Shown: positions 44,943-48,944 of the stretch, piece after piece
Layout: the number at the start of each line of letters is the position of its first letter
How positions within the stretch are numbered: position 1 is the stretch's first letter
Assembly (NCBI GenBank): GCA_903914415.1
Contig: CAIWOY010000071.1
Span: 1-58,394 of the forward strand
Length of the DNA: 58,394 nt
Direction: 5' to 3'
DNA from: an uncultured Phycisphaerales bacterium
GTDB lineage: Bacteria > Planctomycetota > Phycisphaerae > UBA1845 > Fen-1342
Translations under genes and position numbers: made by a program
Notes under the pieces: generated by a model
Database searches by the model: none
Told to the model about the DNA's origin: nothing
The model's input: the letters and a program-made list of their open reading frames with translations, nothing else

Positions 44943-46826
44943 ATGGCCAAGCAACGTGTTGTCGTAGTCGGCGGCGGGCTCGGCGGCCTGTGGGCGACGC
45001 TTCGCCTGGCCGAGGCCGGCCACTCCGTCGACCTCTTCTCGCTCTTCCCGGTCAAGCGCTCGCACTCCTGCTGTGCCCAGGGCGGCATCAACGCCGTCCT
45101 CGACATCAAGGGTCAGCACGACTCGGTCGAGCAGCACGTTACCGACACGATCAAGGGCGGCGACTACCTCGGCGACCAGCCGCCGATCAAGACGATGTGC
45201 CAGGATGCCCCCGGCCTAGTCCGCACCTACGACCGCATGGGCGTCACCTTCAGCCGCACGCCCGAAGGCATCATGGACCAGCGCCTCTTCGGCGGCGTGA
45301 AGAACAGACGGACGTGCTTTGCCGGCGCGACGACCGGCGCCCAGCTCCTCTACGGCATCGACGAGCAGGTCCGCGCCCACGAAGGCGGTGGCCGCGTGCG
45401 AAAACTGGAGTTCTGGGAGTTCCTCTCGCTCGTACTCGACGAGCAGGGCGTCTGCCGCGGCATCGCGGCGCTCAACGTCCGCACCATGAAGGTCGAGACC
45501 TTCCGCGCCGACATCGTGCTCCTGGCCACCGGCGGCGCCGGCCTCATCTGGGGCCGCTCGACGATGTCCACCAACTGCACCGGGGCCGCCGCCGCCCGGG
45601 CCTACCAACAGGGCGCCAAGTTCGCCAACGGCGAGTTCGCCCAGTTCCACCCCACCGCCATGAAGGGCCACGACAAGCTGCGGCTGATGTCCGAAGCCTG
45701 CCGCGGCGAGGGCGGACGCGTCTGGGTGCCGCGCAAGCCCGGCGACACGCGCCTCGGCCGCGACATCCCCGAGAACGAGCGGTTCCACTTCCTCGAAGAG
45801 TGGTATCCCGCCTACGGCAACACGTGCCCGCGCGACGTTGCCTCGCGCGCCCTCGTCCGCGTGACCCGCCACATGGGAATGGGCGTGCGCGGCCAGGACA
45901 TCGTGTATCTCGACCTGACGCACAAGCCACGCGAGTTCCTGGAGGCCCGCCTCGGCGGCATCCTCGACATGTACCAGACCTTCGCCGGCGTCGACCCCTA
46001 CACCAACCCCATGGAGGTCTTCCCCTCCATGCACTACACCATGGGCGGCCTGTGGGTCGGCTACGAGAAGGACGGCCAGACCGGCGGAATGGCCCACATC
46101 AGCCCCAAGAACCACGCCACGTCCGTCCCCGGCCTCTACGCCTGCGGCGAATGCGACTTCGCGTACCACGGGGCGAACCGGCTCGGTGCCAACTCGCTGC
46201 TCAGCGCCTCGTTCAGCGGGCGCGTCGCGGGCGACGCGGCTGCGGCGTACCTCAAGAACCTCAAGTCGAGTTGCGACAAGGTCCCCGACAGCGTGCACGA
46301 CGCGGAACGCAAGCGGCAGGAAGAGATCAACCAGGCGCTGCTCGCTCGCACCGGCGGCGAGAACGCGAGCACCCTGCATCACCAGCTCGGCGAGCTGATG
46401 CAGCAGTACGTCTTCGTCGAGCGCGACAACGCGGGCCTGGACAAGGCCCTGGCCGGCATCGGCGAGCTGAAGGAGCGGGCCAAGAAGATCTCGCTGGACG
46501 ACAAGGGGAATTGGTCGAACCAGTCGTTGCCGTGGGCCCGCCAGGTGCAGGACATGATCGTGCTCGGCGAGGTGATGACCAAGTGCGCCCGCCTGCGCGA
46601 CGAATGCCGCGGCTCGCACTACAAGGCGGAGTTTGAGCTGAAGCAGCCCGAGGGCAAGTTCGCCGGCGACCCCGAGTACGAGGCGTACACCGAGAAGTGG
46701 AAGGCGAACAACGAGCGCTGGCTCAAGCATTCGATCGCGACCCACACGCCCGCCGGCCCGCAGGTCGAATACTGGCCCGTCGACTCGTCCGTGATGCCGC
46801 CGACGAAGCCGCGGGATTACCGGTAG
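44943..46826 (+). CDS. sdhA: Succinate dehydrogenase flavoprotein subunit
   Basis: Oxidises succinate to fumarate with covalently bound FAD. The ATG at 44943 begins MAKQRVVVVGGGLGGLWA, the dinucleotide-binding strand; longer starts overlap sdhC. The 627 residues match Bacillus/epsilon-type SdhA. The FAD-attachment region is KRSHSCCAQGGINAV, and the active site includes QFHPTAMKGHDK and the Arg-containing SEACRGEGGRVW. MHYTMGGLWVGYEKDGQT and GANRLGANSLLSASFSGRVAG are the C-terminal FAD motifs. The stop codon is inside a dispersed repeat. The iron-sulphur subunit gene sdhB follows only after a 1.3-kb interruption. Confidence 0.96.
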   Translation: MAKQRVVVVGGGLGGLWATLRLAEAGHSVDLFSLFPVKRSHSCCAQGGINAVLDIKGQHDSVEQHVTDTIKGGDYLGDQPPIKTMCQDAPGLVRTYDRMGVTFSRTPEGIMDQRLFGGVKNRRTCFAGATTGAQLLYGIDEQVRAHEGGGRVRKLEFWEFLSLVLDEQGVCRGIAALNVRTMKVETFRADIVLLATGGAGLIWGRSTMSTNCTGAAAARAYQQGAKFANGEFAQFHPTAMKGHDKLRLMSEACRGEGGRVWVPRKPGDTRLGRDIPENERFHFLEEWYPAYGNTCPRDVASRALVRVTRHMGMGVRGQDIVYLDLTHKPREFLEARLGGILDMYQTFAGVDPYTNPMEVFPSMHYTMGGLWVGYEKDGQTGGMAHISPKNHATSVPGLYACGECDFAYHGANRLGANSLLSASFSGRVAGDAAAAYLKNLKSSCDKVPDSVHDAERKRQEEINQALLARTGGENASTLHHQLGELMQQYVFVERDNAGLDKALAGIGELKERAKKISLDDKGNWSNQSLPWARQVQDMIVLGEVMTKCARLRDECRGSHYKAEFELKQPEGKFAGDPEYEAYTEKWKANNERWLKHSIATHTPAGPQVEYWPVDSSVMPPTKPRDYR

Positions 46827-46895
46827 CGTCAGGCCTCTGTGCCGTGGGTGGGGTGGGCGTCTCGCCCGCCCCCGTGGCGTGAGGCCTCTGTGCCG
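46826..46895. repeat. Two copies of GCGTCAGGCCTCTGTGCC-type repeat
   Basis: GCGTCAGGCCTCTGTGCCG starts at 46826, overlapping the last base of the sdhA stop. A second copy with one change (GCGTGAGG) starts at 46877. Between them lies a G-rich/C-rich inverted repeat (46851-46874). The same unit follows the lipoate ligase gene at 51439. Confidence 0.8.
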
Positions 46896-46950
46896 GACGG
46901 CGATAGAAGGACGAAGGCGTGGAGAAGGTGGCCCGAGGTCACGGGACTTA

Positions 46951-46979
46951 TTGTACTTTTCGGGCGAAAAGTATAACAA
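46951..46979. terminator. AT-rich stem-loop after sdhA
   Basis: TTGTACTTTTC, loop GGGC, GAAAAGTATAACAA: the inner 8 bp (TACTTTTC/GAAAAGTA) are perfect and the arms continue imperfectly. It lies between sdhA and the inserted nuclease gene. It could weaken read-through from sdhA, or mark a boundary of the insert. The rest of the 287-bp gap holds nothing recognised. Confidence 0.5.
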
Positions 46980-47113
46980 GGCCCAACGTTGTGGTAGCGG
47001 AGTATCATAACGGAGTTCCGTAACCGGTTGCGTACGTGGACGCTTCGGGAGTAACGGTCGCCGGACCGCCCTGCCGGCTGACGCGGAGTTGGATTGTAGA
47101 GCCGAGCTGATTT

Positions 47114-48106
47114 ATGGGACCCTATCTAGCGCGCATCTGTTGGAACTCCAAGAACTGGGTGGGCCCGACGGGCGAAGCTGCGCGCTGCGAGCACAACAGT
47201 TATGTGGCCGAAGCCGGTTTTGGGCACGAAGAATGGCTGTTCAATTTCGCGTGGCAGCTTGGGGGGAAACATTACGCGTTTCTGCAGCCGGTCGCCAATT
47301 CGCATCAGCGGCTCGCCGGAAAAGCCGTGGACCTGCTGCTCTTCACGATCTCCCCCAATGCCCAGCGTTATTACATCGCCGAACTGAGCGGAGCCGAGGT
47401 AGTGCACGAGTCCGATGCGAGAACGGCGCTCAGGGAGTACCGTCAACGCGGGTGGCTTCGCCAGATGAGCGAACAGCTGGATTTGGTTGGCAACCTAAGC
47501 GAGCACCTCGTTTGTGACGCCCTTAGTCTGTTCAACATTCGATTTACCCCAGAGCAGGTACGCTTCCCCGCATCGGGAATGGCGCCCGTACGGAGCAAGT
47601 TCGTCTCCACCCGCAGCCGGTATGTTTTGTACCCGGTTCCCGACGCTGAAGCCGAGAAGCTAACCCGCGGACGGCGTCCCACGACAGGAACCCTGCCAAC
47701 GGACCCGACCAAGAGGCGCGCCCAGCCCGAAACGACCGTCGACCGAACGCATAACGCCCTGCAGAACCACTTAGCCGAGCTTCTGCGAGCCAAGTACGGT
47801 CCGGACACCGTCAGTGTGGAAGAGGACTGGGTCGATCTGACGCTGCGTACGAACGCGTGCACGGCCATTGTTGAGGTAAAAACTGAACCGGATGCTCGTC
47901 TCGCAATCCGATCAGCACTCGGGCAGATACTCGAATACGCCTACTACCCTACGAGAGAGAGGCAGAAGCAACTCGAGTTGCACATCGTCTCGCCGGCCCC
48001 GATGACGGATGAGGTAAGCCGGTACGTGCAGATCCTCTCCGACACAGTAGGGCTGCGACTATCGTACCATCCGTTTTCGCTTGAGACCCAAACGTGTCCG
48101 ATTTGA
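47114..48106 (+). CDS. Putative PD-(D/E)XK restriction endonuclease-like protein
   Basis: A 330-residue protein with two parts. The N-terminal half (LARICWNSKNW, then AGFGHEEWLFNFAWQLG and YAFLQPVANS) resembles, from memory, a domain fused to HNH or other nucleases in modification-dependent restriction enzymes. The C-terminal part has a nuclease core: Asp241 in EDWVDLTL, then Glu254-Val-Lys256 in AIVEVKTE, followed by Gln271 in LGQILEYAYYP, the PD-(D/E)XK layout. Base composition is visibly lower in GC than sdhA and sdhB. It sits between sdhA and sdhB on the same strand. The N-terminal assignment needs alignment. Confidence 0.75.
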   Translation: MGPYLARICWNSKNWVGPTGEAARCEHNSYVAEAGFGHEEWLFNFAWQLGGKHYAFLQPVANSHQRLAGKAVDLLLFTISPNAQRYYIAELSGAEVVHESDARTALREYRQRGWLRQMSEQLDLVGNLSEHLVCDALSLFNIRFTPEQVRFPASGMAPVRSKFVSTRSRYVLYPVPDAEAEKLTRGRRPTTGTLPTDPTKRRAQPETTVDRTHNALQNHLAELLRAKYGPDTVSVEEDWVDLTLRTNACTAIVEVKTEPDARLAIRSALGQILEYAYYPTRERQKQLELHIVSPAPMTDEVSRYVQILSDTVGLRLSYHPFSLETQTCPI

Positions 48107-48170
48107 CATCCAGTTCGCTGTGCCCTGCCTCCTCCGATCGCTTCGCGGCGAGGCATTCGTGGTGAGAAAC

Positions 48171-48944
48171 ATGACAGCCAGCACAACGGTTGCGAGCCAC
48201 AAGGAAATCCACTTCAAGATCAAGCGTCAGGACGGCCCGAACTCCCAGCCCTACTGGGAAGAGTTCAAGATGCCCTACGCGCCGCAACACAACGTGATCT
48301 CCGCGCTGCTCTACCTGCGCGAGCACCCCGTCAACACCAAGGGCCAGCGTGTCGCCCCCGTCGCCTGGGAAAGCAACTGCATGGAGGAGGTCTGCGGCGC
48401 GTGCTCGATGCTGGTCAACGGCGTCCCGCGCCAGGCCTGCGCCGCCCTCGTCGACGACCTCGCGCAGCCCATCGTCCTCGAGCCGCTGACGAAGTTCCCC
48501 ATCATCCGCGACCTCGCCGTCGATCGCCAGAAGATGTTCGACGCCCTCATCCGCGTCAAAGCCTGGGTCCCCCTCGACGGCTCCCAGGACGTCCACGAGC
48601 CCGCCCCGCGCATCTCCCCGGCCGACCAGGCCCTCCGCTACGCCTTCTCGCGTTGCATGACCTGCGGCTGCTGCATGGAGGCCTGCCCGCAGTACCACGA
48701 CCGCTCCGACTTCATCGGCCCCGCGCCGCTCGGCCAGGTCGCGTTGCACAACTCCCACCCCACCGGCGGCTTCTTCAAATCTGACCGCCTGCATGCTCTC
48801 ATGGACCCCGGCGGCATCGCTGGCTGCGGCAACGCCCAGAATTGCTTTAAGGTCTGCCCCAAGGACATCCCGCTCACGCACGCCATCGGCGCTCTGGGGC
48901 GCCAGACGACGGTCCAGTGGCTGCGCGACCTGCTCATCAAGTGA
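48171..48944 (+). CDS. sdhB: Succinate dehydrogenase iron-sulphur subunit
   Basis: Carries electrons from FAD to quinone through three clusters. The ATG at 48171 yields 257 residues; upstream in-frame codons overlap the nuclease gene's vicinity and do not fit. The [2Fe-2S] site is ESNCMEEVCGACSMLVNG with a later Cys in RQACAALV. The [4Fe-4S] and [3Fe-4S] sites are SRCMTCGCCMEACPQY and CGNAQNCFKVCPKDIPL. All ligands are present. It is 64 bp downstream of the nuclease gene and 1.34 kb from sdhA. Confidence 0.96.
   Translation: MTASTTVASHKEIHFKIKRQDGPNSQPYWEEFKMPYAPQHNVISALLYLREHPVNTKGQRVAPVAWESNCMEEVCGACSMLVNGVPRQACAALVDDLAQPIVLEPLTKFPIIRDLAVDRQKMFDALIRVKAWVPLDGSQDVHEPAPRISPADQALRYAFSRCMTCGCCMEACPQYHDRSDFIGPAPLGQVALHNSHPTGGFFKSDRLHALMDPGGIAGCGNAQNCFKVCPKDIPLTHAIGALGRQTTVQWLRDLLIK

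Follow-up and report, generated by a model that had tools for sequence, protein, structure and literature searches.

DNA carrying 5mC or 5hmC is the substrate of VcaM4I, an EVE-HNH restriction enzyme in which the modified base is flipped into a P24/W82/Y130 pocket (PMC7897488). Proteins that join an EVE domain to either a PD-(D/E)XK or an HNH nuclease have already been described as putative type IV restriction enzymes, and many of the EVE domains in that study are stated to be detectable only by sensitive methods (PMC7641849). The gene analyzed here lies in a window of 58,394 nucleotides, the whole stretch of DNA under study, which is contig CAIWOY010000071.1 of an uncultured Phycisphaerales bacterium. 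Its product resembles VcaM4I in plan, with a predicted PUA-like reader at the N-terminus and a nuclease at the C-terminus of a chain of about 310-340 aa, but the nuclease is of the PD-(D/E)XK type instead of HNH, and neither Pfam nor PDB sequence searches detected similarity between its reader and the EVE domain of VcaM4I. Like the EVE-PD(D/E)XK proteins, it combines the two domain types on a single chain and has the role predicted for them; unlike theirs, its reader has an invariant signature of its own (N, W, P.G, GFGHEEW) and no EVE match. The published EVE-PD(D/E)XK set may already include some members of the family (PMC7641849). Accordingly, the new domain composition claimed in the original prediction does not hold for the overall plan, which the EVE proteins already display (PMC7641849), but it does hold for the reader, which forms a divergent and uncatalogued family. 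McrBC is a further point of comparison, as the nuclease half resembles McrC in fold (a VIA Z score of 9.2 with 15% identity across 116 residues), but the window protein lacks a McrB-type NTPase and is a single gene with reader and nuclease in one chain. Given the evidence set out below, the protein is probably a single-chain restriction endonuclease of the modification-dependent, type IV-like kind, whose PUA-like reader is divergent.

The predicted endonuclease gene (47114-48106, + strand) is an unbroken ORF of 993 bp with an ATG start and 330 codons, and has homologues in many phyla. It is flanked by two intact host genes on the same strand, sdhA (44943-46826, with its stop codon at 46826) on the 5' side and sdhB (48171-48944, with its ATG at 48171) on the 3' side. 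As the original prediction had it, this intact gene is lower in GC than its neighbors: its GC3 is 0.69 compared with 0.93 for sdhA and 0.92 for sdhB, and its overall GC content is 0.593, with only 0.9% of the contig's 993-bp windows being equally AT-rich. It is apparently an accessory gene, foreign in composition, that came to lie between the two sdh genes. As it shares their orientation and leaves both intact, the gene may be carried on one transcript with sdhA and sdhB. No literature was found on a defense gene sitting between these two genes.

The 5' part of the inserted segment (46827-47113) contains a direct repeat and a hairpin, and the stretch from the insert to the start of sdhB on the 3' side (48107-48170) contains an inverted repeat. 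The 5' repeats and AT-rich hairpin noted earlier do exist, as a 25-nt direct repeat (46820-46844 and 46871-46895, 88%) and a 20-nt inverted repeat (46943-46962 and 46965-46984, 85%) that together with its loop forms a hairpin at 46943-46984 of 45% GC; however, neither is a conserved feature of the unit. The repeat core CAGGCCTCTGTGCC (GAGGCCTCTGTGCC in one copy) is found at contig positions 46830-46843, 46881-46894 and 51443-51456. In the draft genome it occurs in eight copies, three of them on the window contig, while a reversed-pattern control gave none, so it is a dispersed repeat that is not specific to the gene, and the idea that the direct repeats are insertion-site duplications was rejected on these grounds. 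No second copy of the hairpin was found in the draft genome with up to 3 mismatches allowed. At the locus of the other occupied site, in G006 (see below), the 5' gap is short, the 5' segment is not conserved and the hairpin is missing. A conserved role for the hairpin in regulation or mobility was therefore rejected.

Comparison of sdhA-sdhB spacing in related genomes shows insertion into a pair that is usually contiguous, as originally proposed. A match to sdhB was present in 27 of 27 genomes of the same family, some of the matches being distant paralogues. In G001, which belongs to the same genus and has an sdhB 94% identical to that of the window, about 22 nt separate the TAA of sdhA from the ATG of sdhB and the site is empty; the initial codons of sdhB differ between the window copy and this empty-site relative. 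The next closest genomes after G001 (G011 and G022) are also without the gene. A second occupied site is found in G006, a Phycisphaerae MAG of the same family, where a homologue with 53% identity lies between sdhA and sdhB and has a GC3 of 0.60 against 0.86-0.89 for the two sdh genes. This homologue is the same protein, from the same genome (Phycisphaerae bacterium isolate Zod_Metabat.846), as locus L010 in the wider family. Since this independent MAG shows the same gene order, an assembly artefact was rejected.

The two occupied sites could have arisen by one event, being either ancestral with subsequent losses or spread as an occupied allele through recombination in the sdh flanks, or instead by two insertions that occurred independently at a single permissive site. 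The latter history is a possibility that we regard as rather doubtful. In its favor, the window host (G000) and G006 are placed apart in the sdhB tree, on different sides, with empty-site genomes in between, and the sdhA-sdhB gap hosts other, unrelated inserts in three genomes: 688 bp that may include a small ORF in G014, about 350 bp with GTGTGGCACGGGCTTCCAGCCTGTGG repeats in G007, and 485 bp with short degenerate repeats in G008 (loci L076, L078 and L081, respectively), which indicates that the gap tolerates insertions. Against it, the nuclease genes of G000 and G006 have the same orientation and are sisters in the gene tree with support of 100/100, and the sdhB N-terminus is longer in both occupied alleles (MTASTTVASHKEIHFKIK and MATQSAASGNNEIRFKIK) than in empty ones, e.g. 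MDKVIHFKIK, a hint that the insertion arose once and that the allele was later lost or transferred. Among the relatives examined more widely (L010-L070 and three of the plasmid loci, L004-L006), only L010 lies beside sdh, suggesting that location at sdh is incidental for the family as a whole. Accordingly, the sdh location, known for just two members, is probably incidental, and a functional linkage to sdh was rejected.

In the product, a linker of residues 187-211 (47672-47746, + strand) lies between two modelled domains, of which the second is the PD-(D/E)XK nuclease (residues 212-330; 47747-48103, + strand). H213, D241, E254, K256, R266, Q271 and Y275 are invariant in all 55 aligned PD-(D/E)XK members, so that the Asp...(Glu/Asp)-x-Lys active site (D241, E254 and K256) is kept in every one. 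The AF2 model of the whole protein, built from 55 sequences, has a mean pLDDT of 93.2 and predicts an alpha-beta-beta-beta-alpha-beta core (H212-228, E233-237, E240-245, E249-255, H261-277 and E286-293). A VIA second-look alignment of residues 186-330 gave Z scores of 8-10 to Can2, McrC, Card1, LmuA, BspD6I and others. Foldseek matches to this half were weaker (best E 0.011), and a Pfam match to PDDEXK_9 (E 0.003) was below the model's cut-off and only suggestive. The modelled fold and the invariant motif settle the class, and the C-terminal half is a PD-(D/E)XK nuclease. Both lines thus bear out the nuclease core recognized in the original prediction, with none of the 55 members altered at Asp241, Glu254 or Lys256 and with a match of the predicted structure to PD-(D/E)XK enzymes.

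The N-terminal half (residues 1-186; 47114-47671, + strand) is characterized by the signature R-I-C-W-N...W..P.G...GFGHEEW. Within it N11, P18, G37, E40 and W41 show no variation in 61 sequences, nor in the 55 PD-(D/E)XK members, and in addition to the invariant W41, the aromatic residues W15 and Y54 are nearly invariant. Modelled alone from the 61 sequences, the domain reached a pLDDT of 96.0 and a pTM of 0.91. Its best Foldseek match was the EVE protein THYN1 with 5mC DNA, a weak one (E 0.56). In the second-look comparison all 50 matches listed were EVE, YTH or ASCH proteins, with Z scores of 4.9-6.3 over 103-132 residues, although the lack of other folds among the matches listed does not count as evidence against those folds. 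Taken singly, such scores could reflect a common arrangement, and it is the uniformity of the list that carries the weight.

At the level of sequence the domain stands apart. The EVE model PF01878 matched none of 58 members at E 0.01, did not match the window N-domain alone at E 1 and had no match in genome G000. No Pfam, NCBIfam or PADLOC model covered the N-domain in the 58 members, nor did any PHROGs model in 55 members, and PDB sequence searches with single proteins and with profiles returned no useful reader relatives; thus, Pfam and PDB sequence searches found no sequence-level link to EVE, YTH or ASCH. The N-terminal half is predicted from the models to be a divergent PUA-superfamily-like reader, in line with the EVE-like recognition domain guessed at earlier, the resemblance to EVE, YTH and ASCH being weak for any one match.

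The family is widespread. A scan of genome contigs yielded 56 loci, 55 of them besides the Phycisphaerae copy, in Bacteroidota, Pseudomonadota, Myxococcota, Acidobacteriota, Planctomycetota, Nitrospirota, Nitrospinota, Chloroflexota, Lentisphaerota, Ignavibacteriota, Thermodesulfobacteriota, WOR-3, Omnitrophota, Cloacimonadota and others, as well as in a Bathyarchaeota MAG. Few genomes of the host's own phylum carry it (9 of 392). IMG/VR contigs carry five relatives; the window gene had no match among 50,697 phage records and searches with PHROG models were also negative, so a phage or prophage origin of the window copy is unsupported. One member on a Vibrio tubiashii plasmid, pFP31 (L005:7992-8994), has its N-domain split by a frameshift, is annotated as a shorter hypothetical protein and is probably a decayed copy.

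Both modules are swapped within the family. The N-domain is fused to HNH nucleases at L006, L047, L049, L064 and L066, and in the Vibrio gigantis member the HNH domain matches that of VcaM4I (6yex) at E 2e-21. The N-domain therefore occupies the place that EVE holds in a characterized modification-dependent enzyme. Conversely, the nuclease half occurs without the N-domain, behind other N-terminal domains, at L007-L009.

Many members also carry a further N-terminal domain, for which Pfam gave no reliable match. An extra 180 aa is present at L017, L020, L037, L040 and L048, and that of L017 matches positions 1 to 225 of the PADLOC PtuA1 model (3.7e-31). This model is matched by five family members, pointing to a module common to these nucleases and the Septu ATPase model. 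A different extra domain, with a motif approximating Y-A-F-H-x-G-G-R-x-E-F-Q-F-N-I-G, is found at L021, L024, L026, L027, L033, L034, L036, L055 and L062 and also at L007 and L009, where it precedes either the N-domain or, directly, the nuclease. On the viral contig L066 (2181-2648), the first 156 residues match the beginning of the PADLOC model for UzuA (1.1e-27), giving the order UzuA-like start, N-domain, HNH.

Genes adjoining the relatives include those for type I HsdM/HsdS, GmrSD, AbiEii-like AAA proteins and IetA, and the plasmid copies in Vibrio and Pseudoalteromonas adjoin AbiH and type I RM genes. Most relatives are not beside any recognized defense gene, and HsdM was found in just 4 of 141 neighboring ORFs scanned at their loci. 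Together with the shuffling of domains, the type I RM, GmrSD and Abi neighbors of some relatives lend good support to a role in defense and to modification dependence, and the candidate modification-dependent defense enzyme of the original prediction is supported to that extent. If the enzyme is modification-dependent, the host's own methyltransferases may hint at its target. The C5 methyltransferase model PF00145 had no match in G000, G001 or G006, drafts of which two are 96-97% complete and the third 68%, while the control was positive in 10 of 14 genomes; each of the three encodes several amino-methyltransferases (PF01555 and PF02384). For this host, a C5-cytosine mark would thus be a more tolerable target than m6A or m4C and, judging from gene content, the target is more likely to be a cytosine C5 modification than either of these.

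Other triggers and modes of recognition are less consistent with these data. In one, the protein would still be a defense nuclease, but its N-domain would sense a second messenger, RNA or phage protein. In fold, the nuclease half best matches Can2 and Card1 (Z 9-10), type III CRISPR ancillary nucleases that are activated by cyclic oligoadenylate, and the likeness of the N-domain to EVE, YTH and ASCH is weak in absolute terms. However, among the matches listed the N-domain is PUA-like and not CARF, as in Can2 and Card1, or SAVED, and it pairs with a VcaM4I-type HNH whose sensor in that enzyme reads DNA bases, making such a trigger unlikely. A type II-like restriction enzyme with sequence specificity, either an orphan or one protected by a methyltransferase encoded elsewhere in the genome, appears still less probable. 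The host does encode many amino-methyltransferases, and type I methyltransferases adjoin some relatives. However, no methyltransferase gene was present beside the window gene among the window ORFs read, the relatives have no constant methyltransferase partner, those adjoining being mostly type I, and the N-domain is swapped onto other nuclease folds in the fashion of a sensor. Finally, that it is a resident sdh-operon gene serving succinate dehydrogenase expression or assembly is scarcely credible, as a strand shared with sdh and a position common to two genera are outweighed by its absence from the family's other sdh loci, the same genus included, by sdh adjacency in L010 (the G006 genome) alone among the relatives examined, by a GC3 foreign to the host and by conserved catalytic nuclease residues.

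For the favored modification-dependent endonuclease, residues 1-186 would bind a modified base, probably flipped into an aromatic pocket as in EVE and YTH domains, and residues 212-330, with D241, E254 and K256, would then cut the modified foreign DNA. We infer base binding, modification dependence and the role in defense from the comparisons above. More tentatively, the N-domain could represent a PUA-superfamily reader class of its own, as yet unnamed, which occurs in more than ten phyla, has been exchanged among PD-(D/E)XK nucleases, HNH nucleases and several further N-terminal domains, and reads a DNA mark beyond those of the known SRA, EVE and YTH restriction enzymes. If the proposed function is correct, these more than 50 homologous genes in many phyla would make up a widespread one-gene restriction family that has so far gone unlabelled. 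Its reader, for which Pfam, NCBIfam and PADLOC have no model, would extend the modified-base readers of bacterial defense, and each member would be a candidate tool enzyme for modified-base detection. The sdh site, with its empty counterpart in the same genus, provides a small, clean case of a defense-like gene within a core metabolic operon.
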